This document shows, piece after piece, positions 19,283-41,356 of a stretch of DNA of 64,000 nt. The translations under genes and the position numbers were made by a program. This stretch comes from an uncultured Clostridia bacterium (lineage in GTDB: Bacteria; Bacillota; Clostridia; Christensenellales; Borkfalkiaceae). Positions within the stretch are counted from its first letter, which is position 1. Each line of letters starts with the position of its first letter. The notes below the pieces were generated by a model. That model was not told the DNA's origin, did no database searches, and saw only the letters and a program-made list of their open reading frames with translations. The stretch spans positions 31,143-95,142 of the forward strand of contig CALWCE010000008.1 of the NCBI GenBank assembly GCA_944376295.1, in the 5' to 3' direction.

Positions 19283-20461
19283 TTATTGGTCCAACGGAAG
19301 GGCATATTTGATTTTGTTCGCCTCTTGGATCAGGTAAGCATCAGATAGATCCGTGTAAGCATCGGCCAGCACGCCCGATGAATGACCGACCATTTCATCC
19401 CTCGCTGCATCAGAAACACCGCATTCTCGGCACCTCGTATAAAAGGTCGTCCGTAAATCATACAAGGTATGAGTAGGCATGAGCCTACGAAGGTGCTTAT
19501 ACAACGTCTCCATGTGGCACCAATGGAATTCTTTCATATCGCCGATATACGGAGCAAGCATAGGATTGATCGGAATGCGCTTATACTCTTCACGACCGTT
19601 CTTTCTCTTTGAGTTTTTCGCAATGAGCATATTTCCCTCACGTCGAAGTGTTGCGTATTCGTTTGGTCTCAACCCGGTATATAACGCTATGAGCAACAAA
19701 ATTCGATAGGGCGTCGAAGAAGAAATCAGCTTCACTTCCTCAATCTTGGTAAGCGCTTTTCCGTGCTCGTGTTTGTGCTTTTGATGAAAAACAACAGCTA
19801 ACGGGTTCTTCGTTATTAAGCCGTGCGCTATGGCTCCCTTAAAAGTGTAATTCATGAGCGAAAACACTTCATCTGCCGTCTTTCCTAATCCTCGTGAACG
19901 CAGATCGTCAATCATCGACTGACAGTCAGAAGGTGTGATCGCCTTCAAAGCCATTCCTCCAATGACAGGGAAGATATGATTGCGGCATCGGCTCATATCG
20001 TGATAATAGGTAAGCTCGGTAACCTTTCTCTTGCGAAAAGTCTCGAAATAATATAAGCAAAACTCTTTATAAGTGGTAGGGATTTTAGTCTGCTTAACTC
20101 CATCTCCGGACTCGATACGCCTTAGCGCTGCTATGAAGCGTTCTTTCGCGCGTTCGATCGTTGTTCCGCTGGCAGAGATGTTTAATCCATTCGCACGATA
20201 GCGCAACTCAAAATTGACTGAGCCGCCGCGCTTACGCTTGCGACAATGGACGGGTAGTCCATCAACGCGAAATAGTTTTCTGAATCTTTGTGGCATTTTT
20301 GAAATCTCCTTACTGGTAAATCCCAAAAACACTTCCTGTTTCGCTTCAGTTCCGCTCACTTTTTGATCAAGTGAGAGCGTGCTCTCCAACCCCGATGTAT
20401 GGCCTTCATCGGGCGTCTGAGACGCGGCAACTTGTTTCCATAGTTCTTCTTGTGAGATCAT
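19283..20461 (-). CDS. int: ICE tyrosine integrase
   Basis: Site-specific recombinase for insertion and excision at tRNA-Leu. Seen: N-terminal arm-binding and SAM-like core-binding regions to about residue 235, then the catalytic domain with R265 (YTGLRPNEY), R337 (LYDLRTTF), H360 (MVGHSS) and nucleophile Y369 (DAYTDL). The box-II His two before L-R is a Tyr (Y334), a variation on the usual HxxR. Length 392 is typical for ICE integrases. The gene ends 139 bp from attL. Its start overlaps the stop of a 58-residue upstream gene (ATGA), and its ribosome site AAAGGAG follows a perfect 6-bp hairpin, CCTCTG/CAGAGG. Confidence 0.93.
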   Translation of the reverse strand: MISQEELWKQVAASQTPDEGHTSGLESTLSLDQKVSGTEAKQEVFLGFTSKEISKMPQRFRKLFRVDGLPVHCRKRKRGGSVNFELRYRANGLNISASGTTIERAKERFIAALRRIESGDGVKQTKIPTTYKEFCLYYFETFRKRKVTELTYYHDMSRCRNHIFPVIGGMALKAITPSDCQSMIDDLRSRGLGKTADEVFSLMNYTFKGAIAHGLITKNPLAVVFHQKHKHEHGKALTKIEEVKLISSSTPYRILLLIALYTGLRPNEYATLRREGNMLIAKNSKRKNGREEYKRIPINPMLAPYIGDMKEFHWCHMETLYKHLRRLMPTHTLYDLRTTFYTRCRECGVSDAARDEMVGHSSGVLADAYTDLSDAYLIQEANKIKYALPLDQ

Positions 20462-22997: not shown

Positions 22998-23052
22998 TTG
23001 ACATATAACTCTTTATGTTATATAATCGAGGCGTATAACAGATAGTGTTATA
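22998..23052 (+). promoter_or_regulatory. Switch promoter with two TATAAC-N7-GTTATA operators
   Basis: TTGACA (22998-23003) and TATAAT (23021-23026), 17 bp apart. One operator, TATAAC/GTTATA at 23004-23022, fills the spacer; the second at 23034-23052 covers the start region. Drives the XRE gene at 23123 and probably the following small genes. Confidence 0.85.
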
Positions 23053-23122
23053 TACTGACTTGGATATTTTTTTACCCGTCAAATATTACATTGTAATTTT
23101 TGATAAAAAGGAGGCTCTGAAG

Positions 23123-23356
23123 TTGTTTTGTGATCGTTTGAAAACAGCTCGGATCAATGCCAAAATGTCGCAGCGAGAAGTTGCGAAAAAAATCGGCATC
23201 TCGCAGACGTCGTACTCGTTTCTCGAAAGCGGCTTGAGAGAACCGTCAATGCTGTATCTTCGGCGCATCGCAGCGCTGCTCAACGTCTCGATCGATTGGC
23301 TCTGTGACAATCACCCGGACGAGGAAGAGTTTGTGCTCACTGGCAATAAAAAGTAA
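23123..23356 (+). CDS. XRE regulator 4 (divergent partner of repressor 3)
   Basis: Seen: 77 residues, mostly HTH: RLKTARINAKMSQREVAKKI, GISQTSYSFLESGLREPSML, then RRIAALLNVSIDWLCDNH. I start at TTG 23123, 8 bases after AGGAGG; an upstream in-frame start at 23045 would overlap the operator and add 26 atypical residues. It is the first gene rightward of the switch promoter, so it may act as the Cro-like or activator side of the switch. It is followed by a palindromic TGTACGGACA-type hairpin. Confidence 0.83.
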   Translation: MFCDRLKTARINAKMSQREVAKKIGISQTSYSFLESGLREPSMLYLRRIAALLNVSIDWLCDNHPDEEEFVLTGNKK

Positions 23357-23542: not shown

Positions 23543-23742
23543 TGTGCGGACAGTGTACGGACAGCCAAGAGATGAAAGTCAAAGATTGCAGAATGTGTCC
23601 TTATCATGAGCGGCGCGTATGGCATACCTATTATCGCCCGAGAAACTATCATGCGATCGGAATGACGCACGCATACGCTTATTGTACGCTTCATCAGAAA
23701 CGCATCTTGAAGGTGCGAAATTGTAACGAAAACAGGGAGTGA
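23542..23742 (+). CDS. Small Cys/His-rich protein, probably zinc-binding
   Basis: A 66-residue protein starting at the ATG that overlaps the previous stop. Seen: MCGQCTDS, CRMCPYH and AYCTLHQKR give two CxxC pairs and several His, so a zinc ribbon is likely. The first codons contain a direct pair of the element-wide motif (TGTGCGGACA at 23543-23552, TGTACGGACA at 23554-23563, 11 bp apart), so the motif is embedded in coding sequence here. A longer frame starting at 23371 is not supported because it would run across the previous gene. Confidence 0.7.
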   Translation: MCGQCTDSQEMKVKDCRMCPYHERRVWHTYYRPRNYHAIGMTHAYAYCTLHQKRILKVRNCNENRE

Positions 23743-23747
23743 TATTT

Positions 23748-24173
23748 ATGGAAAAGACCACAAGAACGACAAGAGCGGAAAAGAAGGAACAAGCCCTCGC
23801 GTGCCTGAAAGGGCTGCAAGTGGCAAAGCCTTACATCGAGGACTTCGAGCAAAACGACAAAGTGTATGTGTTTGAAAACCTCTACGGCTATCCCGCGCCC
23901 GGGAACGAGGATGTATTTATCAAGCTGAAGGAGATCGAAAAGAAGTATAAATGCCTCGTCTATGCCGTCATCCATAGCGAGATGTACTTCGGCGACTGCT
24001 ATAATTTCCTGCTTGTGCCGGACGATCCCGAAGATTGGGAATGGCTGCTTCGGTCGAGCGGAGCGCTGCATAGCATTCTTGCATACGTTTGGAACCGCAG
24101 TTATGAGGCAAACAGCGAGATGGGAACGATCTCCTGTCTCTCGATGGCGGGCGGGCTCACAAGGGCTGCATGA
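23748..24173 (+). CDS. Hypothetical ICE protein
   Basis: Not recognised to a named domain. Seen: 141 residues; ATG 23748 is preceded by GGGAGTGAT. Basic N-terminus (RTTRAEKKEQAL), then DFEQNDKVYVFENLYGYP, KKYKCLVYAVIHSEMYFGDC and a Trp-rich VPDDPEDWEWLLR. Mixed alpha/beta, soluble, no signal peptide. It ends 11 bases before the hairpin array, so transcription of the small early operon may run into that array. Confidence 0.7.
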   Translation: MEKTTRTTRAEKKEQALACLKGLQVAKPYIEDFEQNDKVYVFENLYGYPAPGNEDVFIKLKEIEKKYKCLVYAVIHSEMYFGDCYNFLLVPDDPEDWEWLLRSSGALHSILAYVWNRSYEANSEMGTISCLSMAGGLTRAA

Positions 24174-24183
24174 TCCGCCCCCC

Positions 24184-24254
24184 GTACGGACATTGTCCGT
24201 ACAATACGCCGAAACCTCCGATGGGGTGCTGCCTGTTCAAGTCGGGCTTTCGGT
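24184..24254 (+). ncRNA. Hairpin-pair unit A
   Basis: Palindrome GTACGGACA-T-TGTCCGTAC (24184-24202), then outer stem GCCGAAA/TTTCGGT (24208-24214, 24248-24254) and inner arm GCCTG-TTCAAGT-CGGGC (24231-24247). The loop fits the tRNA T-loop consensus TTCRANY. Confidence 0.6.
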
Positions 24255-24323
24255 TCACTCCCTATCTTGCGGTAGGCTTTGCTTGCCGCAAGTGCGGATC
24301 ATTTTCTCATCTTCCTCATATCT

Positions 24324-24400
24324 GCGCGGGGATCCCCCGAATCTCCGCGCATCCTGCCGAAGCCATCATGGATGCGATCTGTTCAAGTCAGATCTTCGGC
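24324..24400 (+). ncRNA. Hairpin-pair unit B
   Basis: First hairpin GCGCGGGGAT/ATCTCCGCGC (24324-24333, 24341-24350), unrelated in sequence to the GTACGGACA palindromes. Outer stem GCCGAA/TTCGGC (24356-24361, 24395-24400); inner arm GATCTG-TTCAAGT-CAGATC (24376-24394) keeps the T-loop but has a different stem. Confidence 0.6.
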
Positions 24401-24426
24401 CATTCATATTCTCTCACCCAAAGTCC

Positions 24427-24498
24427 TGTGCGGATATTATCCGCACACCACGCCGAAACCACCGATGGGGTGCTGCCTGTTCAGGTCAGGCTTTCGAC
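24427..24498 (+). ncRNA. Hairpin-pair unit C
   Basis: Palindrome TGTGCGGAT-ATT-ATCCGCACA (24427-24447) differs from units A and D by paired changes. Outer stem GCCGAAA/TTTCGAC (24452-24458, 24492-24498, one mismatch); inner arm GCCTG-TTCAGGT-CAGGC (24475-24491). Confidence 0.6.
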
Positions 24499-24654
24499 AT
24501 CTCCTTACTTACCCTTTTGTGGCCGAACCCCGCAAAGGGCTCGACGATCTGAAGTATGGCCATGAGAATGTCAGACCGTCGATGAAAGTATCTCCTGTGC
24601 TCTGCGGCAGGGTCACCTTCTGCAGAGTAAGCCTATCCTTCCCCCTAATTATAT

Positions 24655-24722
24655 GTACGGACACTGTCCGTACAACATGCCGGAACCAACGGAATGCAGC
24701 CCGGTCGGGTCGGGCTTTCGGC
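24655..24722 (+). ncRNA. Hairpin-pair unit D
   Basis: Palindrome GTACGGACA-C-TGTCCGTAC (24655-24673); outer stem GCCGGAA/TTTCGGC (24679-24685, 24716-24722, with one G-T pair); inner arm GCCCG-GTCGGGT-CGGGC (24699-24715). The loop has drifted from the T-loop consensus. Confidence 0.55.
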
Positions 24723-24759
24723 ACAACTCATCAGCCTGATGAGACATAGGGAGTGTGTT

Positions 24760-25776
24760 ATGAAGGCGATTTGGAAAAGTTTTTTGGCGTGCGTAATGGG
24801 TATCGTAGTCGCATCGGGTTGCGCGGCAACAGTCAGAGCATCGATCACCGCGAATGCTGCAGAACAAGATGATACCGTAGCTTCGGTCATAGGGACATAT
24901 TGGGAGATTCCTGATTTCTGCCCGGAATGCGGGGTAGAGAACAGTCAATCAAATTTGACTTGGACGTATTTTGAGGACAAAGATGGCTGCACTTATACTT
25001 ACCGCCATGCGGTCCGCAGCGGGAACTATTGTACCGGTAAAGTGACGATCCATAACGGGAAAGAGTTTTACGTTGAAGCAACGTGTACCGAAAACGGAGC
25101 GCAGGGAGTATATTGTGCTGACTGCGGAGCCGTTGGCGAAGTGACAGAAATTCCTGCGATCGGACACAACTGGAGTGATTTGATCGACACGCGGTCGAGT
25201 TGCGCTGAAGCCGGACAGAGATCTCGCATTTGCCTGACGTGCGGAGCTGCAGAAATCGAGAATGTGAAGGCAGGGACGCATACATTCGGAGAGACGGTCA
25301 CTATAACAGCGGCAACGTGTACGGAAGATGGTGAAGGAGAAACATTTTGCATCTACTGCGGTCAAAAAGAAACTTTTACGATCGAAGCGGTAGGGCATCA
25401 TGAAATCTCAATTCCCGGAGTGGAACCGACTTGTACTGAGACCGGTTTGACAGAAGGCGTTCGTTGCGCAATTTGTGGTATCGATCTCGTTGAGCAAGAA
25501 ATAGTGCCAGCACTTGGGCATGACTATAACATGGCTTTCCACGTCTATCCTGACGAAACGATGCCCGGTGAAGAGATCTATCAATGCGCGCATTGCGGAG
25601 ACGTATATGGAAGGGCGATCGCCCCCGAAGTGCAGGAAGAAAACAATGAACTTTGGATCCCGATCGTCATGATCGCTGAAGGCGCCGTTATCTTATTTGG
25701 TGTTGTAACGGGCATTGTGCTTGTGTGTGTCAAAAAGAGGGGGGCAAACAAATGCAATGGTGGGGAATCATCCTGA
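24760..25776 (+). CDS. Cys-rich repeat surface protein 1
   Basis: Seen: ATG 24760 behind GGGAG; 338 residues with a signal peptide (about 1-30), then repeats of about 45 residues pairing a CxxCG knuckle with IPAIGH- or ALGH-type turns and ATCTE-type starts (for example TCTENGAQGVYCADCGA), a C-terminal membrane segment (IVMIAEGAVILFGVVTG) and a short basic tail. The architecture matches three other proteins in this ICE (48919, 59644, 61514), so it is likely displayed outside the cell during mating. Binding partner unknown. A Cys at about residue 21 lies in a poor lipobox. Confidence 0.8.
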   Translation: MKAIWKSFLACVMGIVVASGCAATVRASITANAAEQDDTVASVIGTYWEIPDFCPECGVENSQSNLTWTYFEDKDGCTYTYRHAVRSGNYCTGKVTIHNGKEFYVEATCTENGAQGVYCADCGAVGEVTEIPAIGHNWSDLIDTRSSCAEAGQRSRICLTCGAAEIENVKAGTHTFGETVTITAATCTEDGEGETFCIYCGQKETFTIEAVGHHEISIPGVEPTCTETGLTEGVRCAICGIDLVEQEIVPALGHDYNMAFHVYPDETMPGEEIYQCAHCGDVYGRAIAPEVQEENNELWIPIVMIAEGAVILFGVVTGIVLVCVKKRGANKCNGGESS

Positions 25777-27253: not shown

Positions 27254-27490
27254 ATGGCACTCGGAAATTTCAGAGCGAGAGCAAACAGCACGCAGAGAAC
27301 GACGCGGGCATTGATCACGTCGAGCGTCATCCCTGTGGAGTCCACAAAAAAGACTATGAAAGTAGACCTCCGTGTCAATGAGGATCTGTGGCGGACATTC
27401 GTTGAAGATTGTCAACGAAAAGGCGTCTCGGCGTCATCCGAGCTGCGCCGCTTTATGGAAGAGCAAGTCCGCGAAACTGAAGAACCTTGA
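27254..27490 (+). CDS. Ribbon-helix-helix partner of ParA (ParB-analogue candidate)
   Basis: A 78-residue protein. The N-terminal 35 residues are basic and flexible (RARANSTQRTTRALI); residues 37-75 read KKTMKVDLRVNEDLWRTFVE and GVSASSELRRFMEEQV, the strand-helix-helix pattern of Arc/CopG/ParG proteins. Small ParAs pair with such proteins, which bind short repeats as centromere and operator. Inferred: it recognises the dispersed TGTACGGACA motif, because a motif palindrome flanks parA on the left and a 30-bp one follows this gene on the right. Confidence 0.75.
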   Translation: MALGNFRARANSTQRTTRALITSSVIPVESTKKTMKVDLRVNEDLWRTFVEDCQRKGVSASSELRRFMEEQVRETEEP

Positions 27491-28256: not shown

Positions 28257-29159
28257 ATGATAAAGAACGAGAACTATTATACTATCTTCGGCTGGATGCT
28301 GAAGGAACTTAATCTAAACGGCATCGATCTTGTCGTTTACGCGATCATCTATTCCTTTTCGCAAGACGGGGAAAGCGAATTTAAGGGCAGTCTTGCTTAC
28401 ATAGCAGAATTCACGGGGGCATCTGAGAGGACAATACGTCGAAGCCTTCGTCATCTTGAGGATATGGGCTATATCGAGATGAGTGAGCGCAATCAGAGCG
28501 CGGGGATCGCAAATAGTTATCGTTCCATCGTTGACCTTAACCGCCTATCGGAGATCGGCAAACAAAATGACCGTCCTCTCCCCGAGGAACAAAGGGGGGC
28601 GGACAAAATGACCGCCCCGGGCGGACAAAATGTCCGGGGGGACGGACAAAATGACCGCCCTATTATAAATATAAATAGAAATACAAGTTATAGAGAAAGA
28701 AAGAAAGAAAGTATAAAAAAAGAAGCATCATCCAAGTTCGAGAAAATGAGCGATGAGGAGCTTTTAGATTGGGGGCAGAATCCAATCGATCTTTTCGATC
28801 CTCAGCAAGAAGCTGAGTTTTATGCTTGGAACGATGAGTGCCAAAGGCGGAAAGCTGACGCAAAGCAATGGGACGGGAAGATCATCAAAACGCAGACAAA
28901 TTTTGAACGGCTTGAAAGCCACGAAGAAGTTATGGAACGTATGGGCGTTGACCCGCTGCTCAAAGATGCGTTTCGAGAGCTGCTGCGAAACAGCTATGCA
29001 AACGGACATTTGGTCGTAAACGCACAGCTTGAGGATATGATCATCCGCTTGGATGAGCGGTTTGATAGAGACGAAGAAAGCAAGATCAAAACGGTAAAAA
29101 AGGCAGCGGCCGGCGGTTGGTACGATATCAACGAATGGTTGACGCCGTTGAAGGTATAA
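28257..29159 (+). CDS. Winged-helix replication initiator-like protein
   Basis: Seen: 300 residues. N-terminal winged helix: DLVVYAIIYSFSQDG, then SLAYIAEFTGASERTIRRSL and HLEDMGYIEM. A linker at about residues 98-145 is rich in GQND, DKMT and GQNV because it is encoded by the iteron-like repeats at 28560-28656. The C-terminal part (about 150-300) is helical and charged. Known: many phage and plasmid initiators carry their own binding sites inside the gene in such a linker. Inferred: it initiates replication of the excised circle at these iterons. ATG 28257 has a distant AAAGGGG site. Confidence 0.75.
   Translation: MIKNENYYTIFGWMLKELNLNGIDLVVYAIIYSFSQDGESEFKGSLAYIAEFTGASERTIRRSLRHLEDMGYIEMSERNQSAGIANSYRSIVDLNRLSEIGKQNDRPLPEEQRGADKMTAPGGQNVRGDGQNDRPIININRNTSYRERKKESIKKEASSKFEKMSDEELLDWGQNPIDLFDPQQEAEFYAWNDECQRRKADAKQWDGKIIKTQTNFERLESHEEVMERMGVDPLLKDAFRELLRNSYANGHLVVNAQLEDMIIRLDERFDRDEESKIKTVKKAAAGGWYDINEWLTPLKV
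28560..28656 (+). repeat. Iterons inside the rep gene
   Basis: GGACAAAATGACC at 28601-28613, GGACAAAATGTCC at 28623-28635, GGACAAAATGACC at 28644-28656, and a degenerate AAACAAAATGACC at 28560-28572. They match the upstream iterons and run in the same orientation. Confidence 0.82.
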
Positions 29160-29170
29160 CGAGGAACATT

Positions 29171-32100
29171 ATGGATTGGAAGAACTTTGAAGTTAAATTC
29201 CCCGAAGCACCCGACGTGGGAGAAACAGTACGCTACCGCCGCTATCAGGCGATCGCAAAAGAGTACCCGAACGCATTTATCATCGACCGAATGGGCGATT
29301 TTTACGAGATTCTCGGCGATTGCGCCGTGGAGGCTGCGAATGCGATCGGTCTCACACTTACCTCTCGCAGCATGGGGACGGAAGGGCGCGTGCCTATGGT
29401 AGGCTTCCCTTATCACGTCGCGCCGCAGTACATAGACAAGCTCGTGCAGTTTCGCGCCGTCGTGCTCGCTCCGGACGGAGAAGAAAAACAGTTCTTCCCT
29501 GCCGCAAATAGAGCGGCGCAGGAACGCTCGGCGGACGTTATATCCATTTCCGATGCGGCTTCAGAACCTAATCCGTTTGACGATCCCGTCTCGTTTTCGC
29601 CCGAAGAGACCGAAAATCAAGGGCAATCCACAGAAAAGCATGAGCCCGGCATTCAGGAGAGACGTCGTAGAAAAAAGCCGCAGCTCTCCCTGTTTGACCT
29701 TGCCGAAGCCGAAGAGAAGTCGGAGAAAGAGCAACTCATCGAGCGCGTTCTGCAAAGAGGAACGGCATTTGAGGATGGGAAGTTCCGCATTTACGACGAG
29801 TACCGTAAAAACCCTACGTCAAAAGCCTTCGCAGACTATTTGAAAAGCGAATATGGCTCGGGCGGTCAGAGCATTGACGATACGTTTTTCATTACCGAAT
29901 CGCGCGGCATTAAGATCTTAGTCCCCGGCGTATTTGGGAGAGACGATAAGATCTTCCTTTCGTGGAAAGAAGTTGCAAATCGGATCGGAGATCTCATCGA
30001 TGAGGAGAAGTATCTCGGCGAAGAAGAGATAAAGGAGTACCGCGAGAAGCAAGAGGCGAAACGGAAAGCAGAGGAAGAAAAGTCGAAGCGGCTTTCGTCT
30101 CTTATCGGGCGCGTCATCAACGGCGCGATCGAGGTTAGAAAGCAGCGTATCATGGCGGCATATTCCGGTGACAAAAATTCGGCCGACTTTGCGGCAGTCG
30201 TCTGCGATGAGTACGGTTACAGCATCGAGACCGGAGACGGCTATTTCGCGCAGTATATCACCTCGCAAGGGGTACGTCTGCACGAGCTTGATGAGAACGG
30301 CAGGATCGTGTTTGAGGCAAATCTGACTTGGAATGCCTTTGCAAGCCTGATCGGAGATATGATCGACCGCGGTGCGTATGAGCTGCAAAGCCACGAAACA
30401 AAAGAGCAGCAGAACGTGAACGACCATGCTGAGATCATTGACAGAATGGTGCAGCTCGGCACGCGAAACACGGAAAGCGGAAAGTACGCATACTACTACG
30501 GTACATTTGGGAAGGACGAGGAGTATGTCCGCGCACATTGCAATGAGATCAAAGAGGCCATGCTTGCGCGGGGGGAAATCAAAGCGGTCGAAAGCGACGA
30601 ATGGTATATCCATGCAGAGTTTTACGAGGAATTCTGCGAAAAGCTGAACGGCGTGGAACAGCAAGTAAAACGCATCGTTGAGAGCATCGTCTCCGAGGGA
30701 ACTCAGGCAACGTTGGATACCGTTTGGCTCGTGGAATATGCCGATCTCGGCGAGGATGAGGCGTTTGTTCGGGAACACATAGACCTTGTGCGGGAAGAGC
30801 TCCTAAGCCGCGAAGAAGTCGCGGACGTAGAGATCGACGAGCGCGGGATCGATACGACGTTTTTCTATGCTTTTTGCCCGAACTATGAGCTTCAGGAGGG
30901 CGATGAGGGGTACGAGGAGCAAGTAGAACAGCAGGACGGGGAAAACCTTTCGACCACTGCGACTGAGGAAGAGGCGAGCGGGAACGGACCAAAGGCAAGG
31001 TACCGCAATAACATCGCCGCCATCCGGCTCGTGAACTTCTTGGACTCTCACAATATGACGGCGACCGAGGAACAAAGGGCAACGCTCTCCCGTTATGTCG
31101 GATGGGGCGGGCTGCCTCAGGCGTTTGATGCGCACAACGCCGCATGGGCAAAGGAGTACGAAGAACTCAAGGGACTTTTGTCTGCCGAGGACTACGAACA
31201 GGCAAAGGCGAGCACGCTTTCCGCCTTCTATACGCCGCAGGAAGTCATTGCGGGAATGTATGACATTTTGCAGCGTTTCGGCGTGCATGGCGGGAACCGT
31301 ATTTTGGAACCCGCAATGGGAACGGGGAATTTCTTTGCCTATATGCCCGCCTCGATCGCAGAAGGCGCACAGCGGTATGGCGTAGAGCTTGACCGCGTGA
31401 CGGGCAGGATCGCCGCGAAGTTATATCCCAATATCAATGTGCAGATCAAGGGCTTCGAGGATACGTCTTTCCCCGACGGGATGTTTGACGTCGTGGTGGG
31501 CAACGTGCCGTTCGGCGGCTTTGGCGTATTTGACAGCGCCTATAACCGCTATAACTTCCGCATCCACGATTATTTCCTCGCCAAATCCATTGATAAGGTG
31601 CGGGCGGGCGGGATCGTCGCCGTCATCACCTCGAAGGGCACGATGGACAAGCAGAACGAAAGCGCCCGGCGATACGTCGCGGAGCGGGCGGAACTTCTCG
31701 GCGCAATCAGGCTGCCCAACAACGCCTTCAAGTCAACAGCCGGAACGGAAGCCGTTGCAGATATTCTCTTCTTCCGCAAGCGGGAAGAAAAGTTGCAAGA
31801 TCTTTCGGGCGAACGCTGGATCGGCCTTGCCGAAAATGCAGACGGGATGCGGCTCAACGCCTACTTTGTGGAGCATCCCGAGATGGTCCTCGGAACGCTC
31901 GCATTTGAGACCGGCCTCTACGGCGGGATGGACATCACCGTCAAGCCCGACGGGCGGGAGCTCGGCGCTGCGATCGCAGAGGCGGCGCAGAATTTGCCGC
32001 GAGAGATCTTCACGGCTCGCGAACGGACGGAAGAGCCGTCTGAAGCAGAAAACATCGAAACAGATTACAACATCAAGGAAGGGTGCTTTACCGTCATCCG

Positions 32101-35100
32101 CGGCAAGGTCTATCAGCGCATCGGCGACGCGATGGAAGAAAGAACGCCCTCGAAGCCGAAAGACGCGGTCGAACGAATTACCGCCATGATCGCCTTGAAG
32201 GATGAACTCCATCATATCCTCGATCTGCAAGCGCAAGGCTGTTCTGACGAGGTGCTTGCCGCCATGCAGGTAAGCCTGAATGCCCGCTATGACGCCTTTG
32301 TCAAAGCATACGGTGCGCTCAACACGCAGACCAACGTGCGGCTGTTCCGCGACGATGCCGAGAGCGCCTTCCTTTTCGCTTCGGAAAACGTGGAAGGGGA
32401 GAGCTATACGAAGGCCGATATTTTCTCGAAGCGCACGGTGCGTCCGTACATTGTCCCGACAGAGACCAAAGACTGCTACGAGGCAATGCAGATCTCGAAG
32501 AACGAGCGCGGCAGAGTGGACATTGCTTACATCGAAGAGCTTACAGGCAAGGACTATGATACCGTTCTATCCGAGCTGGAAAGCGCCGTTTTCCGCGATC
32601 CCGCAAAAATAGCGGAAGGGGACAAATACTCCGGATTCGTGACCGCGAGCGAATATCTTGCAGGCGACGTCGTCACGAAACTTGCAGCAGCAAGCGAAAA
32701 AGCCTTAGAAGACCCGAGTTTCAAGCGTAATGTTGAAGCGTTGCAAGCGGTGCAGCCCGAGCGCATCAGCGCAAGCGACATTGCAGTGCGGCTCGGCGCG
32801 CCGTGGATCGATAAAAAGTATTACGAACAATTCTTCTGCGAGCTCGTCGAAGTCCCGTTCTATCTCCGCGACGGGGTGGAGATCTTCTACAACGCATTTG
32901 ACAGCTCATGGCGTTTGGATCAGTGGGGGAGCGTAAAGGGCAAAACGAACTATCGGCAGAAGAATGTATATGGAACGGAACGCGCACCCGCTGCCCGCCT
33001 GTTTGAGGATGCTCTCAATCTGCGGGCAACAACGATCTACGATACCATCAAAGAGGACGGACATGAGAGGCGTGTCCTCAATCAGGCAGAGACGCTTGCC
33101 GCCCGTGATAAGCAGAATCAGATCAAAGAAGCGTTTGCAGATTGGATCTTCGCGGATCCCGAACGCCGCGAGGACTTGGAGACAACGTACAATCTCCGTT
33201 TCAACCGGCTGCGCTTACCGAGCTACGACGGAAGCTATTTGCGTTTTCCCGGGAAAAACCCCGAGATCGAACTTCGGCCGCATCAAAGAAGCGCTGTGGA
33301 ACGCATTGTGTCAAGCGACGGCAGCGTGCTGCTTCATCACGTCGTCGGCAGCGGCAAAACCTTTACGGCCATCTCCGCCATCATGAAAATGCGGCAGCTC
33401 GGTATCTGTCAGAAAGCAATGGTCGCGGTGCCGAATCATCTCGTCGAGCAATGGGCGGGGGATTGGCGCAGACTGTATCCTGCTGCGAAGATCCTTGTTG
33501 CCACAAAAGAAGATTTAGCGAAAGACAACCGCAAGCGGTTTGTCTCGAAGGTCGCGCTCGGCGATTGGGACGGCATCCTGATCGCGCAGTCGTCCTTTGC
33601 TAAGATCCCCATATCCCCCGAACGGCAGATCCGCAAGATGCGGGAAGAGATAGGGAACATCGAAGCCTGTATCGAGCAGACATGGGAAGAGAAAGGGCAG
33701 CCCGACGGAGCCGTCAAAAACCTCCAACGCATCAAGAAGAACAAGGAAAAGCAGCTCAAAGAGCTGATGAGCGCGGAGAAGAAAGACAACGTGCTTCTCT
33801 TCGAAGAGCTCGGCATTGACTATCTTTTAGTGGACGAGGCGCACTATTACAAAAATCTCTTTTTGTTCACAAAAATGAACAACGTCTCGGGAATTTCCTC
33901 GGCTGCAAGCCAGCGGGCAACGGACCTGAAGCTAAAGTGCGAATATCTGCAAGAGCTTCATGGCAGCGATCGCGGCGTTGTGTTCCTGACCGGTACGCCT
34001 GTATCCAACAGCATGACCGAAATGTACACGATGCAGACGTACTTGCAGCCGACCACTCTCAAAGAGCTCGGGATGCCGTTCTTTGACAACTGGGCGGCAA
34101 ACTTCGGCGAAACGGTCACGTCAATGGAACTTGCACCGAGCGGGCAGGGGTACCGCGCAAAGACGCGCTTTGCAAAGTTTACGAACCTGCCTGAGCTCAT
34201 GACGCTTTACCGCTCCTTTGCCGACGTTCAGACCGCCGACATGGTCAAATTGGACGTTCCCACCGCCGAGCATATCGTCGTTAATCTTACTCCGTCCGAA
34301 ACGGTCATCGCCTTTGCCGAGGAGATCGCAGCTCGTGCCGAGCGCATCAATAGCGGCGGCGTCGATCCGCACATCGATAATATGCTGCGCATTACCTCGG
34401 ACGGCAAAAAGCTCGCTCTCGATCCCCGCCTCTATGCGGAAAACGGGCAGGACGAAGCGGGGAACAAGCTCAATGAATGCGCAAAGCGTGTCTTTGAGAT
34501 ATGGGCGGATACCACCGACATTCAAGGCACGCAGATCATCTTCTGCGACCTCTCGACGCCCAAAAAGAAGTACGAGGACTATGCGCCGGGAACGGATTTT
34601 GATGTCTACAACGAGCTGAAATACAAACTTGTGCAGCGCGGGATCCCGAAAGATGAGATCGCTTACATCCACGATCCGAAGAATGAAAAAGAAAAGCAAG
34701 CCCTCTTTGACGAGCTGAACGAGGGGACGGTTCGCGTCATCATCGGCAGCACGGAAAAATGCGGCGCAGGAGCAAACCTGCAAAAGAAGCTCGTGGCGCT
34801 TCATCACCTTGACACGCCGTACCGCCCCGCAGACATGGAACAGCGGGAGGGCCGCATCGTCCGTCAGGGCAACGAGAATGAGGACGTGAAGATCTTCACC
34901 TATGTGACGCAGCGCACGTTTGATAGCTATTCTTATCAGATCCTCGAAAATAAGCAGCGCTTTATATCTCAGATCACGCGCGGCGATCTGTATGTTCGGG
35001 AGGCGGAAGACATCGATGAGACGACGCTCTCCTACGCCGAGATCAAGGCAATTACCGCCGCTAATCCCAAGATCAAACGCAAGATGGAAGTGGATGCGGA

Positions 35101-38100
35101 AGTCTCCCGACTGCGGCTGCTCGAAGGGCGTTACAAGAAACGTCTCTTTGAGTTGCAGGATGAGATCAGAAAAGGCTATCCCGAACGCATCCAACGGCAA
35201 GAGCTGTTGGTGGAACGCGCGCAAAAAGACCTCGAAACGCTGAAAGCGCATCCCCGTGAGGATGATAAGTTTGAGATCACCGTAAAAGGCAAGAGATACA
35301 CGGCGCGCAAAGAGGGCGGGCAGGCTCTCACGGAAGCGATCTTTACCCCGATCCCCGACGTCTCCATCGCTGCTTATCGTGGCTTCCAAATTGCCGCCAA
35401 ACCTCTCAACGTCTTAAAGCTGGAGCGAGAGTGCGTGATCAAAGGCGCGGGCGAATACATAACAGATCTTGCCGACAGTCCGTCAGGCAACCTCATGAGG
35501 CTCGATAATTTCTTCGCCGACTTCCCGGACCGCGTTCGGCGTCTCGAAATGCGGCTTGAACAGATGCAAAACGACTTTGAGATCGCCAAAGAAGAGGTAA
35601 AAAAGCCGTTTGAGCATACGGAGCGGCTAAAAGAGCTGCTCTCCGAACAGGCGCAGCTCAACGCGGAACTCGATCTCAACCATCATGAGGAAGTCATTGT
35701 AGACGACGAAACAGGCGAGGCTGTAGAAGCCGTAGAAGAAGATAAATCCGTAGAGACCACAAAAGAAGAAAATGATACCCTCGATGAACCCGTTGGGACA
35801 GAGCGCAGCACTGGAACGACGATCCCGCAGGAAATCGAGGATGCCATTGAAAACGAGGTGCAAGAGGAAATGCCCGTAACCAAAGAAAGAGATATTTTGC
35901 TGCCCGACAGAGTACAGCTCGAAGATTTCGCCGATACGGAAGTGCATATAACAAAAGATGCGTTGCCGATCAGGAACGAGATCGCACGGTTGCTCATTCG
36001 CTTAGGGCTGAGTGTTTATATCCCTCAACCAAGCGGCGAAATGGCAAGAGCGCTTGGTATGAGCGAATTTGACGATCCCAAAGTAATGTTTGCCGTGATG
36101 AAAGACGAATGGGAAGCGTTCGTTACTTCAAAGAAAGGGAAAAATTACATGGACGCCCGTCTCTACGTTCTTTTTAGCGGTGTTTCCGAATTTCTTTACG
36201 ACACAAGCAGAGCAAACGACAATGACGACTTTGAAGAATCTGTTTTAGAAGAGTTAAAGGAAGAAAATCAGAGAAGTGTGCGAGAACTCTTTGGTCATGG
36301 AGCGGAAAAGCCAAACGGGAACGAAGCAGGGTTATATCCTTATGCGGTCAGGATCCTTGACGAGCAAACGAATTATCTCATTTCCAAACTACCCGAAGGA
36401 CAGAGGGTTTGGAAAAAAGATGCTTTACGACAAAAAATCGTCAGCGAACTTCCTGATATCCCTTTGACCGAAATGCTCAAGCGATATGCCGAGCATCAAG
36501 ATGTTACGGAGTACCTTGAGCTGGGGTTGAGCGAGCTTCGTTGGCTCAACGGCCGAAAAGACGATTTTTCGTGGGATGACATGACAGATCTTTACGGAGA
36601 CCTGAAATTCCATTTTGAACGTAGCGCATTCGACGAAAGCAAGGGTGGGGCGGACTATGACTATTGGTACGATACTTACTTTTACGACGACGTCCTATAT
36701 CCTGTTTTGCGAGAACGCATAAGCGAAGAGGCAGAGCGAGAAGAGCAAGAAAGCGATATGGATTTCTTAGGGATACCATCGTTGGACGTTGCCCTTAAAG
36801 TCCTTGCAGTGCAAGAAGATACGCCATTCGGAGACGGGCGAACATCGAGGACGGGAGTGTTGTTTCTCGAGAACACAGAGTATGATGGCGATTTTGATGG
36901 CGAATGGTACGTTGTTACGACGTCGCCAAAAATTAGCGAAAATATCGTGCTCCATGTGGGCGATCAGATCGATCTTGAATCGTTGTTTCCCGAAAGTTTA
37001 ATACATCCGAAAATTGCATTGATTAGTGCCGCAGATTTTCAAGCCTTCCACGACCGCAAAGAAGCCAAAGAATACTTTGAAAGCCGTGCAAAAGCGCAGA
37101 GGGGAGAGAGTACGGAACAAAGTAACGACGCGGTAGAGGCTGAATCCGCTTCGGCACAGACAACGGTAAACAGACCACATGACCCGTTCACACAACTGAC
37201 GGAAGAGGAGACCTCTGCCTTTGAGGCATATAAGGGCCGAGATTGGGAGTACGAGCCTGAGATGTCACTTTGGGGCGAGGTACAGCATTGCTATACGATC
37301 GCGCCCGGCATCTACGACGTCAGCACCGCAGGGCATGGCGGCGTGATGATTGATTGGCAGCTTGCAGCCTATATCCTGTCTCCTGCAGCGCGGAAGGAAG
37401 CAGAGAGTTTCGGGCAATATCTTTGTTTTGAAGAGGACGTCGCCGCGTGCATTGCCTTCCGCGAGATGATCGATAAAGGCATTCTTACAAAAGAAAACCC
37501 GTTCTTCGATGCCTATTCTGCCGACGCTGACGCTATCCCTGAGCTTGAGGGAACGACCCGTTACAGGGATCTTACCGAGGAACAAAAAGAGCGGTTTTTT
37601 GAGAAGTGGAGAGCGCTGCTTAATGCGCCCATAGAGGAATACTGCAAGGAATATCAAGCCGCATACCTCAAAGCGCAAGAGGGCCGCGTACAACCAAAAA
37701 CAGAACCGGTAACCACAGAAAAAGAGGAGGAAACCATGCCGAAAACCAATGAACAGGCCGTGAGTTATCGTGACGTCCCGATCTATCTGCAGACGGGAGA
37801 CTATGCGCGGGAACACAATGAGCGTGAGATGCTGCGCGCCTCTCGCCAAGCCGATGAGGCTTGTAGAGACGCGATCGATAACGCGATCCGAGAACACTAT
37901 GACGGATCGCATCTTGACAGCAGCTTTCTGCCGCAGATCATCGAAGATTTCGGCGTAGAGCGCGTGAAATATATCCTCGCGACAACGCTGCGTGAGCACA
38001 CATACGATCAAAGATACAGCCGCGTAAATCAGGAGTGGGCCGCAGGGATCGAGATCTCTGAAAGCGAACAGACAAGGTTAAATTGCTTACTCACGTCGCA

Positions 38101-41100
38101 TCCCGTTGTGATCAACGGCGTTGTGAACAACGTAAGGCAGAACGCAAAGGATGCCGAGGAAGAGGCGGAGCAGATGACAGCAGAGGAAGCGCCCGCAGCT
38201 CAGGTTGACTTTGAAGCAGAGGTCAGCCGAAGCGTGCAACAAGAGTTTGCAGAGTTTAAGGCAGACCTTCTTACCCGCTCACCCGAGGCGATCTTTACAG
38301 AAAGCTTCCATATCACAGCTATGGGCGAACTGGAATCGACGATCGTAGAAAGCTACTTAGAGCCGCAGCATTACAGGGCCCTGTACGAGGAACGAGGGCA
38401 TATCCTCAGTAGCCTTTACGATGACTTCATCAAACATGATTGGGCGAGCGTCAACAGCTATGCCGAAACGGCAGAGTTTATCGATGACTACTGTAAGCGC
38501 CATCATGAATCCATCATGGAAGCAGCAGAAGAACAAGAACGGCAGGAACAAGACCGGCAGCCTCTGCCCGCAGACCCCATTGACCTTATCGTTGTGGACA
38601 CCGAAACGACGGGCCTTTATGCGTCCGCAGACGAGCTTTTGCAGGTCTCCATCATCGACGGTGACGGCAACACACTTTATAACGGCTATTTCAAGCCCGA
38701 GCATACGGAGAGTTGGCCGAAAGCGGAAGAAGTCAACCATATTTCCCCTGAAATGGTCGCCAACGCGCCGAGCATTCAATCGGAAATAGCGGCGATCGGG
38801 AACATCCTGAGCCGCGCTAAGACGATCGTCGGTTACAACACCGGATACGATCTCCGCTTCTTACGAGCGGCAGGATGGAAGCGACCCGAAGGGCAGAAGA
38901 TCGTTGACGTCATGCAAGACTTTGCCCCCATCTATGGCGTATGGAGCGAGGAGATAGGGGACTACAGATGGCAGAAGCTTTCGACGTGTGCGGCATGGTA
39001 CGGCTATGAATGGACCGAGCGCGGCGCGCACAACAGCCTCGAGGACTGCCTTGCAACGCTGCATTGCTACAAGGAAATGGAGAAAGAAAAAGCCGAGCCG
39101 CCGGCATATTTGAATGGGTATCATGAATCGATCTATGGCCTTATCTACAATTGGAAGGGGCTGAAAGAGGAGAACTATGTTTATACCCGTTCGCAGCTCA
39201 ACAAATTTGACGAAAACTTCGACGCGAAGGCAGATCGCTACGACGGCGCGATCGCTGCCAACAAGACCTATATGGTCATCCGTTTGGAGGGCGCGACAGA
39301 AGAGGAGACAGAGCAGATCGTCCGAGACTTTTTGACCGGAAAGTACAACGAGGAGGATCTCGGCAGCGAGGCGGAACCTGTAGAGGGATGGTATTGGGAG
39401 ACGGTCACGGAGGACTTCTTCACTGGCGAAAAGAATCAGACCGCTGAGGCACTTATCAATTATTTTGGCCTTCGGGAAGAGCAGCTCCGAATGCAGGAGC
39501 CTGCCCGGAAACAGGAACAAGTGAAATATGAAACACGGACAGCCCGCGGCTATCCCGTTCTTAAGATCGAAAAAGACGGTAACGACCGGAATATTGCGAT
39601 CGTACATCGTCAGACTGACACGCTCAACGATTACATCGTTGCGATCGGTTACGACGTTGAGGACGGCAGATGGGCGCAAGGGCGCTACGATTTCCCGTCC
39701 GCCGAGGCGGCGCAGGAGTACATCGATGAAACGTATGGGAAAAAGCAACTTGCCGCCCAAGAAGATAAGCCTGAGACGGTAAAGCAGGAAGCCATTGCCG
39801 CAGACACGGCTCAAACGGAAAAGGCAGAAGAAACCACAAAAGAAAAAAAGAAGATCATCATTGAACTTGTCGGCGTTCACAAGCTCGGTGAATACCCGAA
39901 GAGCATTTTGTTCAGAATGCCCGATGACTCGGAGTTTGCAGGGTATTCGTTCTATCTTCCCAAAGGCGCGGTCAAAGAAGAGGACGGAAAGATCTATGCA
40001 ACGTTGTGGCCCGAATTTACTGCGAAATTGCAAAATAGAGAGAAACAGACGAAAGATCTCCCTGTAACCGATTTCGCCGCCGTATTCGCCCCCAAGACAG
40101 CAGCGGAAGATACGCCCAAAACTTCTGCGTATGAATACATCATGCTGCCGAGAGAGGCGCTCATGAAGCAATACGACACGGTCACGATGATCAAAATGCC
40201 GATCACGGGAGAATATGCAAACAGCATCTTCTATTTCCCCAACAAGCTCATAAAGCCCGGAAAGGACGACCGGACCGTGCGCCTCTCCGTGCCGCAGGAT
40301 TTTGTCGTCAAGCTGCAAAAACGGGAAGAGAAGAGCACTCTGACGCGCGAACAGTTTGTCGCCGCCATGCAGGACGTCACCGCCGATGACTTCCACAAAC
40401 GCTATGAGCGGCCGAGCGAAGCGGCGTGGAAAGCTCTGAAACAGAACCTTATCGACAATGTGCCGGAAGAGATGAAGCAGCAGCCGAAGTGGGTAGCCGT
40501 CGTCACCGTAGTAGAGGACGGGAAAGAACATCTCGGGAAAAGGCTCATCGATTGCCATAACGGCTCGTGGGCAGTGAGCTCGGATCCCAATACTTGGACA
40601 GACTTTGAGACCGCGCTTGCTTATGCCGAAACGCACGGCGCAGACACGATCGCATTCGCCCTGACGGGAGAAGATAATATCGCGTGCATCGACGTTGATA
40701 GCTGCGTTGGCGAGGACGGGAAATATTCCGCCAAAGCCATTGAGACGTACTGCAAAGCAGATAACACCTACTGCGAGCGGTCTATCAGCGGCAAGGGGCT
40801 GCATTTCTTCGGCAAGACGACGATGCAGGACGATCTCAAATCCTTCTCGACGGACGGCAAGTTGGAGTTCTATCGTAACGGGCATTTTATCTCGATGACG
40901 GGCGACATTGAAACAGGCTGCAAGGAGATCAAGAGCTTCGACACGCCTGAAATGACGGCGTATATCCGTGAGAACTTTGAACGACGCATCGAATGGAAAG
41001 GGACTTGTCAACGGCAAGCGGGGCTTTCTTACAGCTCTGACCGCGAAGTGCTCGAAAAGGCGTTTGCGTCCAAGAACGGAGACACGATCAAGCGGCTCTA

Positions 41101-41356
41101 TAACGGCGAAGATCTCTATCATGACCACAGCCGCAGCGACATGGCGCTCATGAGCCACCTCGCTTACTGGACCAACGGAGATATCGATCAGATGCTTCAG
41201 ATCTTCGCGACATCAGGGCTTTATCGACCCAACAAAGCGCCCGCATACTTCGAGACGACCGCCATGAAATGCCTGCAAAACCGAATGGGAGCACAAAGCG
41301 CGCCGGCTTCCATTCAAGGGAAGATACCACAAAAAGGAAATTACAGCGAAAAGTAA
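29171..41356 (+). CDS. Giant fusion: MutS-I-like, adenine methylase, SNF2 helicase, DnaQ exonuclease, primase-polymerase
   Basis: A 4061-residue protein from ATG 29171 (GAGGAA site). Domains in order: a MutS domain-I-like module (about 20-100; IIDRMGDFYEI); N6-adenine methylase (SAM motif LEPAMGTGNF near 711, NVPFGGF near 778 in place of NPPF/Y); SNF2-type helicase (VVGSGKTFT near 1395, VDEAHYYKN near 1554, REGRIVRQGNE near 1893); acidic linkers; a DUF3849-like part near 2865-2980; DnaQ-type DEDD exonuclease (VDTETTG near 3140, HNSLED near 3295); and a primase-polymerase-like C-terminus (DNIACIDVD near 3840, SISGKGLHFFG near 3875) with a helical end. Known: helicase-methylase giants occur in ICEs and protect or process incoming DNA. 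Inferred: replication and anti-restriction in one chain. Confidence 0.85.
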   Translation: MDWKNFEVKFPEAPDVGETVRYRRYQAIAKEYPNAFIIDRMGDFYEILGDCAVEAANAIGLTLTSRSMGTEGRVPMVGFPYHVAPQYIDKLVQFRAVVLAPDGEEKQFFPAANRAAQERSADVISISDAASEPNPFDDPVSFSPEETENQGQSTEKHEPGIQERRRRKKPQLSLFDLAEAEEKSEKEQLIERVLQRGTAFEDGKFRIYDEYRKNPTSKAFADYLKSEYGSGGQSIDDTFFITESRGIKILVPGVFGRDDKIFLSWKEVANRIGDLIDEEKYLGEEEIKEYREKQEAKRKAEEEKSKRLSSLIGRVINGAIEVRKQRIMAAYSGDKNSADFAAVVCDEYGYSIETGDGYFAQYITSQGVRLHELDENGRIVFEANLTWNAFASLIGDMIDRGAYELQSHETKEQQNVNDHAEIIDRMVQLGTRNTESGKYAYYYGTFGKDEEYVRAHCNEIKEAMLARGEIKAVESDEWYIHAEFYEEFCEKLNGVEQQVKRIVESIVSEGTQATLDTVWLVEYADLGEDEAFVREHIDLVREELLSREEVADVEIDERGIDTTFFYAFCPNYELQEGDEGYEEQVEQQDGENLSTTATEEEASGNGPKARYRNNIAAIRLVNFLDSHNMTATEEQRATLSRYVGWGGLPQAFDAHNAAWAKEYEELKGLLSAEDYEQAKASTLSAFYTPQEVIAGMYDILQRFGVHGGNRILEPAMGTGNFFAYMPASIAEGAQRYGVELDRVTGRIAAKLYPNINVQIKGFEDTSFPDGMFDVVVGNVPFGGFGVFDSAYNRYNFRIHDYFLAKSIDKVRAGGIVAVITSKGTMDKQNESARRYVAERAELLGAIRLPNNAFKSTAGTEAVADILFFRKREEKLQDLSGERWIGLAENADGMRLNAYFVEHPEMVLGTLAFETGLYGGMDITVKPDGRELGAAIAEAAQNLPREIFTARERTEEPSEAENIETDYNIKEGCFTVIRGKVYQRIGDAMEERTPSKPKDAVERITAMIALKDELHHILDLQAQGCSDEVLAAMQVSLNARYDAFVKAYGALNTQTNVRLFRDDAESAFLFASENVEGESYTKADIFSKRTVRPYIVPTETKDCYEAMQISKNERGRVDIAYIEELTGKDYDTVLSELESAVFRDPAKIAEGDKYSGFVTASEYLAGDVVTKLAAASEKALEDPSFKRNVEALQAVQPERISASDIAVRLGAPWIDKKYYEQFFCELVEVPFYLRDGVEIFYNAFDSSWRLDQWGSVKGKTNYRQKNVYGTERAPAARLFEDALNLRATTIYDTIKEDGHERRVLNQAETLAARDKQNQIKEAFADWIFADPERREDLETTYNLRFNRLRLPSYDGSYLRFPGKNPEIELRPHQRSAVERIVSSDGSVLLHHVVGSGKTFTAISAIMKMRQLGICQKAMVAVPNHLVEQWAGDWRRLYPAAKILVATKEDLAKDNRKRFVSKVALGDWDGILIAQSSFAKIPISPERQIRKMREEIGNIEACIEQTWEEKGQPDGAVKNLQRIKKNKEKQLKELMSAEKKDNVLLFEELGIDYLLVDEAHYYKNLFLFTKMNNVSGISSAASQRATDLKLKCEYLQELHGSDRGVVFLTGTPVSNSMTEMYTMQTYLQPTTLKELGMPFFDNWAANFGETVTSMELAPSGQGYRAKTRFAKFTNLPELMTLYRSFADVQTADMVKLDVPTAEHIVVNLTPSETVIAFAEEIAARAERINSGGVDPHIDNMLRITSDGKKLALDPRLYAENGQDEAGNKLNECAKRVFEIWADTTDIQGTQIIFCDLSTPKKKYEDYAPGTDFDVYNELKYKLVQRGIPKDEIAYIHDPKNEKEKQALFDELNEGTVRVIIGSTEKCGAGANLQKKLVALHHLDTPYRPADMEQREGRIVRQGNENEDVKIFTYVTQRTFDSYSYQILENKQRFISQITRGDLYVREAEDIDETTLSYAEIKAITAANPKIKRKMEVDAEVSRLRLLEGRYKKRLFELQDEIRKGYPERIQRQELLVERAQKDLETLKAHPREDDKFEITVKGKRYTARKEGGQALTEAIFTPIPDVSIAAYRGFQIAAKPLNVLKLERECVIKGAGEYITDLADSPSGNLMRLDNFFADFPDRVRRLEMRLEQMQNDFEIAKEEVKKPFEHTERLKELLSEQAQLNAELDLNHHEEVIVDDETGEAVEAVEEDKSVETTKEENDTLDEPVGTERSTGTTIPQEIEDAIENEVQEEMPVTKERDILLPDRVQLEDFADTEVHITKDALPIRNEIARLLIRLGLSVYIPQPSGEMARALGMSEFDDPKVMFAVMKDEWEAFVTSKKGKNYMDARLYVLFSGVSEFLYDTSRANDNDDFEESVLEELKEENQRSVRELFGHGAEKPNGNEAGLYPYAVRILDEQTNYLISKLPEGQRVWKKDALRQKIVSELPDIPLTEMLKRYAEHQDVTEYLELGLSELRWLNGRKDDFSWDDMTDLYGDLKFHFERSAFDESKGGADYDYWYDTYFYDDVLYPVLRERISEEAEREEQESDMDFLGIPSLDVALKVLAVQEDTPFGDGRTSRTGVLFLENTEYDGDFDGEWYVVTTSPKISENIVLHVGDQIDLESLFPESLIHPKIALISAADFQAFHDRKEAKEYFESRAKAQRGESTEQSNDAVEAESASAQTTVNRPHDPFTQLTEEETSAFEAYKGRDWEYEPEMSLWGEVQHCYTIAPGIYDVSTAGHGGVMIDWQLAAYILSPAARKEAESFGQYLCFEEDVAACIAFREMIDKGILTKENPFFDAYSADADAIPELEGTTRYRDLTEEQKERFFEKWRALLNAPIEEYCKEYQAAYLKAQEGRVQPKTEPVTTEKEEETMPKTNEQAVSYRDVPIYLQTGDYAREHNEREMLRASRQADEACRDAIDNAIREHYDGSHLDSSFLPQIIEDFGVERVKYILATTLREHTYDQRYSRVNQEWAAGIEISESEQTRLNCLLTSHPVVINGVVNNVRQNAKDAEEEAEQMTAEEAPAAQVDFEAEVSRSVQQEFAEFKADLLTRSPEAIFTESFHITAMGELESTIVESYLEPQHYRALYEERGHILSSLYDDFIKHDWASVNSYAETAEFIDDYCKRHHESIMEAAEEQERQEQDRQPLPADPIDLIVVDTETTGLYASADELLQVSIIDGDGNTLYNGYFKPEHTESWPKAEEVNHISPEMVANAPSIQSEIAAIGNILSRAKTIVGYNTGYDLRFLRAAGWKRPEGQKIVDVMQDFAPIYGVWSEEIGDYRWQKLSTCAAWYGYEWTERGAHNSLEDCLATLHCYKEMEKEKAEPPAYLNGYHESIYGLIYNWKGLKEENYVYTRSQLNKFDENFDAKADRYDGAIAANKTYMVIRLEGATEEETEQIVRDFLTGKYNEEDLGSEAEPVEGWYWETVTEDFFTGEKNQTAEALINYFGLREEQLRMQEPARKQEQVKYETRTARGYPVLKIEKDGNDRNIAIVHRQTDTLNDYIVAIGYDVEDGRWAQGRYDFPSAEAAQEYIDETYGKKQLAAQEDKPETVKQEAIAADTAQTEKAEETTKEKKKIIIELVGVHKLGEYPKSILFRMPDDSEFAGYSFYLPKGAVKEEDGKIYATLWPEFTAKLQNREKQTKDLPVTDFAAVFAPKTAAEDTPKTSAYEYIMLPREALMKQYDTVTMIKMPITGEYANSIFYFPNKLIKPGKDDRTVRLSVPQDFVVKLQKREEKSTLTREQFVAAMQDVTADDFHKRYERPSEAAWKALKQNLIDNVPEEMKQQPKWVAVVTVVEDGKEHLGKRLIDCHNGSWAVSSDPNTWTDFETALAYAETHGADTIAFALTGEDNIACIDVDSCVGEDGKYSAKAIETYCKADNTYCERSISGKGLHFFGKTTMQDDLKSFSTDGKLEFYRNGHFISMTGDIETGCKEIKSFDTPEMTAYIRENFERRIEWKGTCQRQAGLSYSSDREVLEKAFASKNGDTIKRLYNGEDLYHDHSRSDMALMSHLAYWTNGDIDQMLQIFATSGLYRPNKAPAYFETTAMKCLQNRMGAQSAPASIQGKIPQKGNYSEK

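Follow-up and report, generated by a model that had tools for sequence, protein, structure and literature searches.

The window, by which we mean the whole 64,000-nucleotide stretch of DNA that was analysed, contains an ICE of about 43 kb, bounded at 19120 and 62450 by copies of a tRNA-Leu 3' end. The preliminary description had suggested that TTCAAGTC begins the att core, and we found it doing so at both positions. The ICE encodes an integrase (19283-20461, minus strand), a MobL relaxase, a T4SS coupling protein, ArdC, a TraG-like ATPase and several helix-turn-helix proteins, one of them (23045-23356) assigned by a family match and the others by eye. A single open frame of 4079 codons at 29117-41356 has, by eye, the look of a multidomain helicase/methylase. 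At the right end of the ICE (62450-62883) the tRNA-Leu 3' end is present in triplicate at a spacing of 205 bp, with two near-identical repeats between the copies, which are possibly stacked attachment sites.

Re-reading the window sequence, we located all four units of the previously described array within 24184-24722, between two genes of the ICE. The features of this region are as follows.

23748-24173, plus strand: upstream gene, 141 aa; a family search gave nothing above cut-off
24184-24202, no strand: leading palindrome of unit A, GTACGGAC-att-GTCCGTAC, an ICE-wide operator-like site
24208-24254, plus strand: mini-tRNA fold of unit A, with P1 of 7 bp, P2, P3 of 5 bp and loop TTCAAGT
24256-24265, plus strand: CACTCCCTAT, 10 nt complementary to the sequence that precedes the start codon at 24760; identical in G056
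24266-24292, plus strand: extra hairpin between units A and B, almost unchanged in G056
24323-24351, plus strand: leading hairpin of unit B, TGCGCGGGGAT...ATCTCCGCGCA, unlike the GTACGGAC sites
24356-24400, plus strand: mini-tRNA fold of unit B, loop TTCAAGT
24427-24447, no strand: leading palindrome of unit C, TGTGCGGATA-t-TATCCGCACA, a half-site variant
24452-24498, plus strand: mini-tRNA fold of unit C, loop TTCAGGT
24541-24582, plus strand: first hairpin between units C and D, its surroundings not conserved in G056
24600-24627, plus strand: second hairpin between units C and D, its sequence partly kept in G056
24654-24674, no strand: leading palindrome of unit D, TGTACGGACA-c-TGTCCGTACA
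24679-24722, plus strand: mini-tRNA fold of unit D, loop GTCGGGT
24727-24743, plus strand: hairpin CTCATCAG-c-CTGATGAG, preceding the likely ribosome-binding site
24746-24755, plus strand: ATAGGGAGTG, which contains the likely Shine-Dalgarno sequence GGGAG and is complementary to 24256-24265
24760-25776, plus strand: downstream gene, 338 aa; zinc-ribbon match below cut-off

Each unit consists of a palindrome followed by a fold of 44-47 nt made up of P1, P2 and P3. This core fold is a three-way junction in which P1 (7 bp) is followed by one C, by P2, by a C and one free base, and by P3. P2 is a stem of 2-4 bp, commonly C-A.../...T-G, with a short, mostly GG-containing D-like loop, and P3 has 5 bp and a 7-nt T-like loop closed by a G-C pair. 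Since the 3' strand of P3 adjoins the 3' strand of P1, the two helices can stack to 12 bp, as they do in the acceptor/T-arm half of tRNA. The inner stems are exactly those first quoted, and the loop TTCAAGT reported for units A and B fits the T-loop consensus TTCRANY; the consensus is broken in the loops of units C and D. It had also been stated that the D and anticodon arms are missing; the anticodon arm is indeed absent, but a D side remains in the form of P2, where 97.2% of cells are paired.

The closest relative of the array is in G056, a genome of the same genus, which has four units in the same place in a region that is 77% identical. Covariance-model searches of related genomes, the check proposed at the outset, turned up further homologues with compensatory changes. 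Units were detected in 4 of 103 genomes of the genus and 5 of 398 genomes of the family, and there are 12 ICE units altogether: four each in the window and G056, two in G019, and one each in G159 and G587. Judged by eye from their neighbouring genes, the elements of the last three genomes are ICE-like. The genes downstream of the units are the gene at 24760 in the window and its counterpart in G056, a 298-aa gene and parA in G019, parA in G159, and a short ORF before parA in G587. In an order-level sample of 396 genomes, only G126, G143, G097 and G527 matched at E <= 0.01 beyond the unit carriers. ARAGORN identifies the G126 and G143 matches as tRNA-Leu, the G097 match has a score equal to that of G126, and the G527 match was discarded as false, having a 10-nt insertion in place of P3. 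Model searches of more than 40 genomes use stricter filters, from which weak units could escape. Alignment of ParA found 160 loci in genome and virus contigs, and model R2 detected no unit in the 45 of these to which it was applied. A pattern had no matches in 291 genomes of the class, a weak result as the pattern also misses the four units of the window's own genome. When 23739-24900 was compared by blastn with phage and plasmid sequences, nothing matched.

Measured against dinucleotide shuffles, a 591-nt region covering the array is 6.7 sd more stable when folded as the plus strand and 3.7 sd more stable as the minus strand, with none of 100 shuffles as good in either case. Such stable folding, together with the presence of four units and extra hairpins within 540 nt, would suit a non-coding RNA that acts in trans, mimicking tRNA so as to titrate a tRNA-binding enzyme or a host defence factor. 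We consider this unlikely, since G159 and G587 have single units and most of the phage elements described below lie directly before a gene. Lone core folds are unexceptional (z of -0.2 to -1.5), and hence the case for structure rests on comparison between units.

Among the eight units of the window and G056, 98.9% of cells are paired and double changes occur in 9 of 23 pairs; with 11 units the figures are 99.1% and 13 of 22 pairs. For the core alone, we aligned 15 units, comprising the 12 ICE units and three phage units and drawn from five genomes and three virus contigs. Of 216 cells, 99.1% are paired, and there are double changes in 10 of 15 pairs (38 such cells). Because this alignment was fitted to the covariance model, with units that the model itself had selected, these figures favour the structure. 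None of 500 shuffles reached the observed paired share, number of double-change pairs or number of double-change cells, while 10 of 500 reached the count of further pair types. When the partner strand was slid along the alignment, pairing fell to 25-49%. RNAalifold recovered P1 and P3 from the same alignment, and did not recover P2. In all 15 units P1 has 7 bp, P3 has 5 bp and the loop has 7 nt, with no indels and with two isolated mispairs in the core cells. One G of the P2 loop and one C of the T-loop are invariant, and we take these, by analogy, to be the equivalents of G19 and C56 of tRNA. GG occupies identical P2-loop columns in 13 of 15 units, and lies one base later in unit B.

The core cells of the 15 units include 10 G-U wobbles and only one A-C, and this excess indicates that the likely RNA is the plus strand, which is also the strand of the genes. 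We conclude from these comparisons that the core fold is very probably an RNA structure on the plus strand, and the original proposal of an RNA structure under selection, similar to the acceptor/T-arm of tRNA, is thus borne out by the pairing, the double changes and the G-U excess. It is very unlikely that the whole unit is instead a DNA-level site (an operator, oriT, att or partition site) that looks like RNA only because it is symmetric. Such a site is very probably what the leading palindrome represents, but the core has nested pairs, stem lengths free of indels and invariant loop bases, and its wobbles are of the kind expected of RNA. In addition, the elements of G019 and G159 adjoin tRNA-Trp and tRNA-Pro, respectively, which from their adjacency we take to be the integration sites, and both carry the same kind of unit. 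We therefore reject the suggestion of an att-like or integrase-related role, on the grounds of these different tRNA neighbours and the G-U excess. Functionless relics of tRNA genes, left by integration or recombination, are the least probable source of the units; tRNA-Leu genes of other families do score 28-31 bits with our models, but relics would have lost their pairing, which here has been kept through 38 double-change cells.

A chance origin of the fold is ruled out by the covariation and the shuffles, and also by searches with structural descriptors. We ran a strict descriptor (7 bp, a linker of 8-20 nt, 5 bp and TTCRANY) on 295 sequences totalling 2.87 Mb. It gave 37 matches, many at overlapping loci and representing, by our count, 10 distinct elements, as compared with none in reversed and none in Markov controls. 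A loose descriptor gave 63 matches, as compared with 2 in reversed and 1.5 in Markov controls. The loci were fetched partly for their resemblance to the units, so the rate is not unbiased; the strict matches in L238 at 5094 and L198 at 4429 were themselves selected by none of the patterns.

The leading palindrome appears to belong to a different system. The window has 28 copies of GTACGGAC or its complement, 27 of them inside the ICE (between 23359 and 62030); base count predicts about 2-3. The copies form ten clusters, five inverted and five direct. Direct repeats of the half-site cannot form the leading hairpin, and for this reason, and because the half-site recurs across the ICE without the fold, we rejected an RNA-only hairpin. 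By eye, several clusters separate a gene's end from the ribosome-binding site of the gene that follows. Those at 57056 and 57200 are inside a mechanically called ORF, and the cluster at 41358 has no gene close after it. In the 14 kb of G019 that were read, all eight matching half-sites are GTACGTAC, and G587 has GTACACAC/GTGTACAC-like copies at two clusters. Thus, the half-site changes as a set between elements, as would be expected of a DNA-binding protein and its operators. The palindrome is, on this evidence, most likely a DNA operator of a separate ICE-wide system, which would explain the paired changes of the leading hairpin without RNA. Among virus contigs the operator pattern matched two, and R2 detected no unit in either. 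When scored as a hairpin it has 100% of cells paired, double changes in 4 of 7 pairs, 3 G-U and no A-C cells, and a spacer of variable length. Such pairing suits an RNA hairpin, and the palindrome may have an added role in RNA. The initial view of each unit as two RNA hairpins is therefore doubtful for the first of them, even though its pairing would be compatible with RNA.

Operator repeats of the delta/omega type are served by ParA and a ribbon-helix-helix protein. The sites described here are similar in that short direct and inverted half-sites lie near many genes of the element and a small protein is encoded beside ParA; the likeness covers the leading palindrome alone, and protein binding here is putative. 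Our candidate binder is the 78-aa protein beside ParA (27254-27490), which by eye resembles a ribbon-helix-helix protein. A family search with it gave nothing above cut-off, and by eye there is no obvious correspondence between its strand residues and the half-site. The leading hairpin of unit B (24323-24351) is outside the half-site pattern; its sequence differs from those of the other three and its loop is longer. G056 retains this hairpin, altered on one side and with a loop that is longer again.

We compared the units with known RNA families. The description of the units as not being tRNAs is correct: in the window, ARAGORN and Rfam call only the tRNA-Leu at 19061, and 23900-24900 has no tRNA match up to E = 5. 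True tRNA genes can be dismissed, as the units fall below the gathering score of RF00005 and receive no ARAGORN call. The units share with tRNA a 7-bp acceptor-like stem adjoining a 5-bp T-arm-like stem, a 7-nt loop closed by G-C, TTCRANY in units A and B, and a G in the D-like loop; they differ from it in having no anticodon arm and a D-like stem of only 2-4 bp. None of the 12 ICE units has a 3' NCCA, whereas two of the three homologous phage units have ACCA. No family of Rfam 15 covers the units of the window, and the first phage homologues match no Rfam family at gathering scores; for L227, a search of 2950-3250 up to E = 10 gave a single far-below-threshold match, on the other strand. The small tRNA-like mascRNA/menRNA, human nuclear RNAs freed from a longer transcript by RNase P (PMC11693755), is similar in kind. 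Its model (RF01684) does not match the ICE units, and one phage minihelix scores 21.3 of 42.5 bits with E = 1.1, which is chance level; we did not count this match, and it slightly lowered our odds for recognition by RNase P.

A DNA pattern derived from P2 and P3 matched 18 virus contigs. Two of these, L227 and L238, score 43.4 and 42.0 bits with the model. Their P1 is wholly different from that of the ICE units (UCCCAAG/CUUGGGA) yet pairs at 7 of 7 positions, and P1 was absent from the search pattern. Of 18 contigs matched in two later pattern scans, L227 and L238 again pair (P1 7/7, P3 5/5), and the other 16, several of them near-identical, do not (P1 0-5/7, P3 2-4/5). With a looser pattern that matched 33 contigs, ARAGORN and the pairing test revealed no further fully paired unit with a short linker, and R2 gave, on 25 new contigs, only a match with E = 0.11 inside a tRNA-Asn. 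Relatives of the gene following the L227 element were found in seven contigs. L288 (equal to L227), L289 (equal to L238) and L292 have the element just before the gene, another acceptor/T-arm minihelix takes its place in L290 (7 acceptor pairs) and L294 (6 acceptor pairs), and L291 and L293 have neither element nor minihelix there. Hence, at this one phage gene, the geometry appears to outlive the sequence.

We examined the position of 12 phage elements relative to genes; these were found partly by patterns and partly by eye, and several are close relatives and so not independent. In nine of the 12, an ATG that opens an ORF of at least 60 codons follows the element after 5-21 nt; as background, 17% of 6000 positions drawn at random from three loci have such an ATG within 40 nt. 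Eight begin within -10 to +1 of the stop of the upstream frame. The set includes L302 and L309b, which have longer linkers, and L238b, L290 and L198, which have no close start; L309b lies in a match that reaches the Rfam tRNA score (33.1 bits).

We propose that the core fold acts in cis as a tRNA mimic in miniature. Presumably transcribed as part of mobile-element messages, it would copy the acceptor/T-arm half of tRNA, with stackable helices of 7 and 5 bp and a T-like loop, and the G of its tiny D-like loop could touch the T-loop C in an elbow contact. Shape-based recognition, the intercistronic position and the T-like loop all point to tRNA-handling machinery. Of the host factors that recognise tRNA by shape, RNase P would be the most likely to read the fold, and its cut would fall immediately 5' of P1, separating the cistrons of the message and perhaps altering their expression. 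This processing signal is our preferred reading, although our confidence in it is somewhat below even. According to one review, RNase P apparently does not need the D-loop and does need the T-loop (PMC4919913), and another describes RNase P processing of mRNAs, operon messages and phage RNAs (PMC11143913). Arguing against RNase P, the ICE units have no CCA, and the T-loops of units C and D are imperfect.

A close rival, which we regard as a serious but lesser possibility, is a translational leader resembling the yjdF riboswitch, in which the mini-tRNA, through contact with a ligand, a protein or the ribosome, sets access to the ribosome-binding site. Perfect complements of 8-10 nt link the 25 nt that follow the first or only unit with the 25 nt preceding the start codon in the window and G056, in G587 and in G159, that is, in four of the five ICE elements, two of which have identical sequence. 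Complements as long arose in 2000 mononucleotide shuffles 0 times for the identical sequence of the window and G056, once for G587 and 41 times for G159. Neither G019 leader has such a complement (412 and 1432 of 2000 shuffles do as well), nor does the sequence after unit D alone (1491 of 2000). In folding of the leaders, positions -16 to -3 are unpaired with a mean probability of 0.25-0.54, and enforcing the core changes little in most of them; these figures have no control. In phages, the gap between element and ATG can be as short as 5 nt, with no room for a separate platform. The tRNA-like 5' leader of yjdF activates translation in its folded form, as do tRNAs grafted upstream of a Shine-Dalgarno sequence (PMC9142559). 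The ICE leaders resemble it in their tRNA-like fold, their D/T-loop-like pair and, in most of them, a ribosome-binding site that a complement might cover, this complement being clear in the window, G056 and G587, weaker in G159 and absent from G019; however, the Rfam covariance model for yjdF does not match the units, and yjdF is described as having an anticodon-like arm and a purine-rich J1/2 (PMC9142559).

Processing by RNase P and control of translation are mutually compatible. That a single leader has four units, and that sequences complementary to the ribosome-binding region are present, suggests translational control as much as processing, and the helix that could cover the ribosome-binding site after the first ICE unit in most cases would probably add such control to cleavage. 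If translation is the target, the units would be a second tRNA-like switch beside yjdF. More broadly, and with more caution than for the RNase P signal itself, we suggest that ICE and phage mimics between cistrons, conserved in shape and free in sequence, may hand messages to host tRNA processing. Mitochondrial transcripts are punctuated by tRNA genes, and the mimics would be the counterpart of this in bacterial mobile elements. To our knowledge, the intercistronic RNase P sites of bacterial operons are separate cases that do not form a shared covarying family. The resemblance to them lies in the action of RNase P between cistrons (PMC11143913). If processing occurs, mobile elements punctuate operons by means of a near-universal host RNA enzyme, which would constitute an extra layer of phage and ICE gene control. 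Searches of openly licensed PMC full texts (CC0, CC BY, CC BY-SA) revealed no account of such control, or of such elements in ICEs or phages. Leaders and processing signals that resemble tRNA are both established; what is new, within the scope of that literature and Rfam 15, is a strongly covarying family of mini-tRNA structures in mobile elements, whose acceptor/T-arm dimensions give a physical clue to function.

Other tRNA-like structures were seen in the phage sequences. Look-alikes with a longer P2 in L226, L234, L237 and L240 score 20.7-34.2 bits and were excluded from all counts. Short blastn searches against phages and plasmids gave five records for one phage unit, three of them under annotated tRNAs, and three records for one ICE unit, all with E of at least 1. 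One of these records led to the crAss-like phage cr4_1 (L313, NC_055893.1), where an unannotated tRNA-like structure at 843-924, longer than the units and with a 7-bp acceptor and a T-arm, lies 19 nt before the DNA polymerase gene. The minus strand of L237, which also has one of the look-alikes, carries two Rfam type II hammerhead ribozymes (3401-3463 and 3793-3854), and the virus contig L258 has its own tmRNA gene among 11 tRNA genes (2543-2928).
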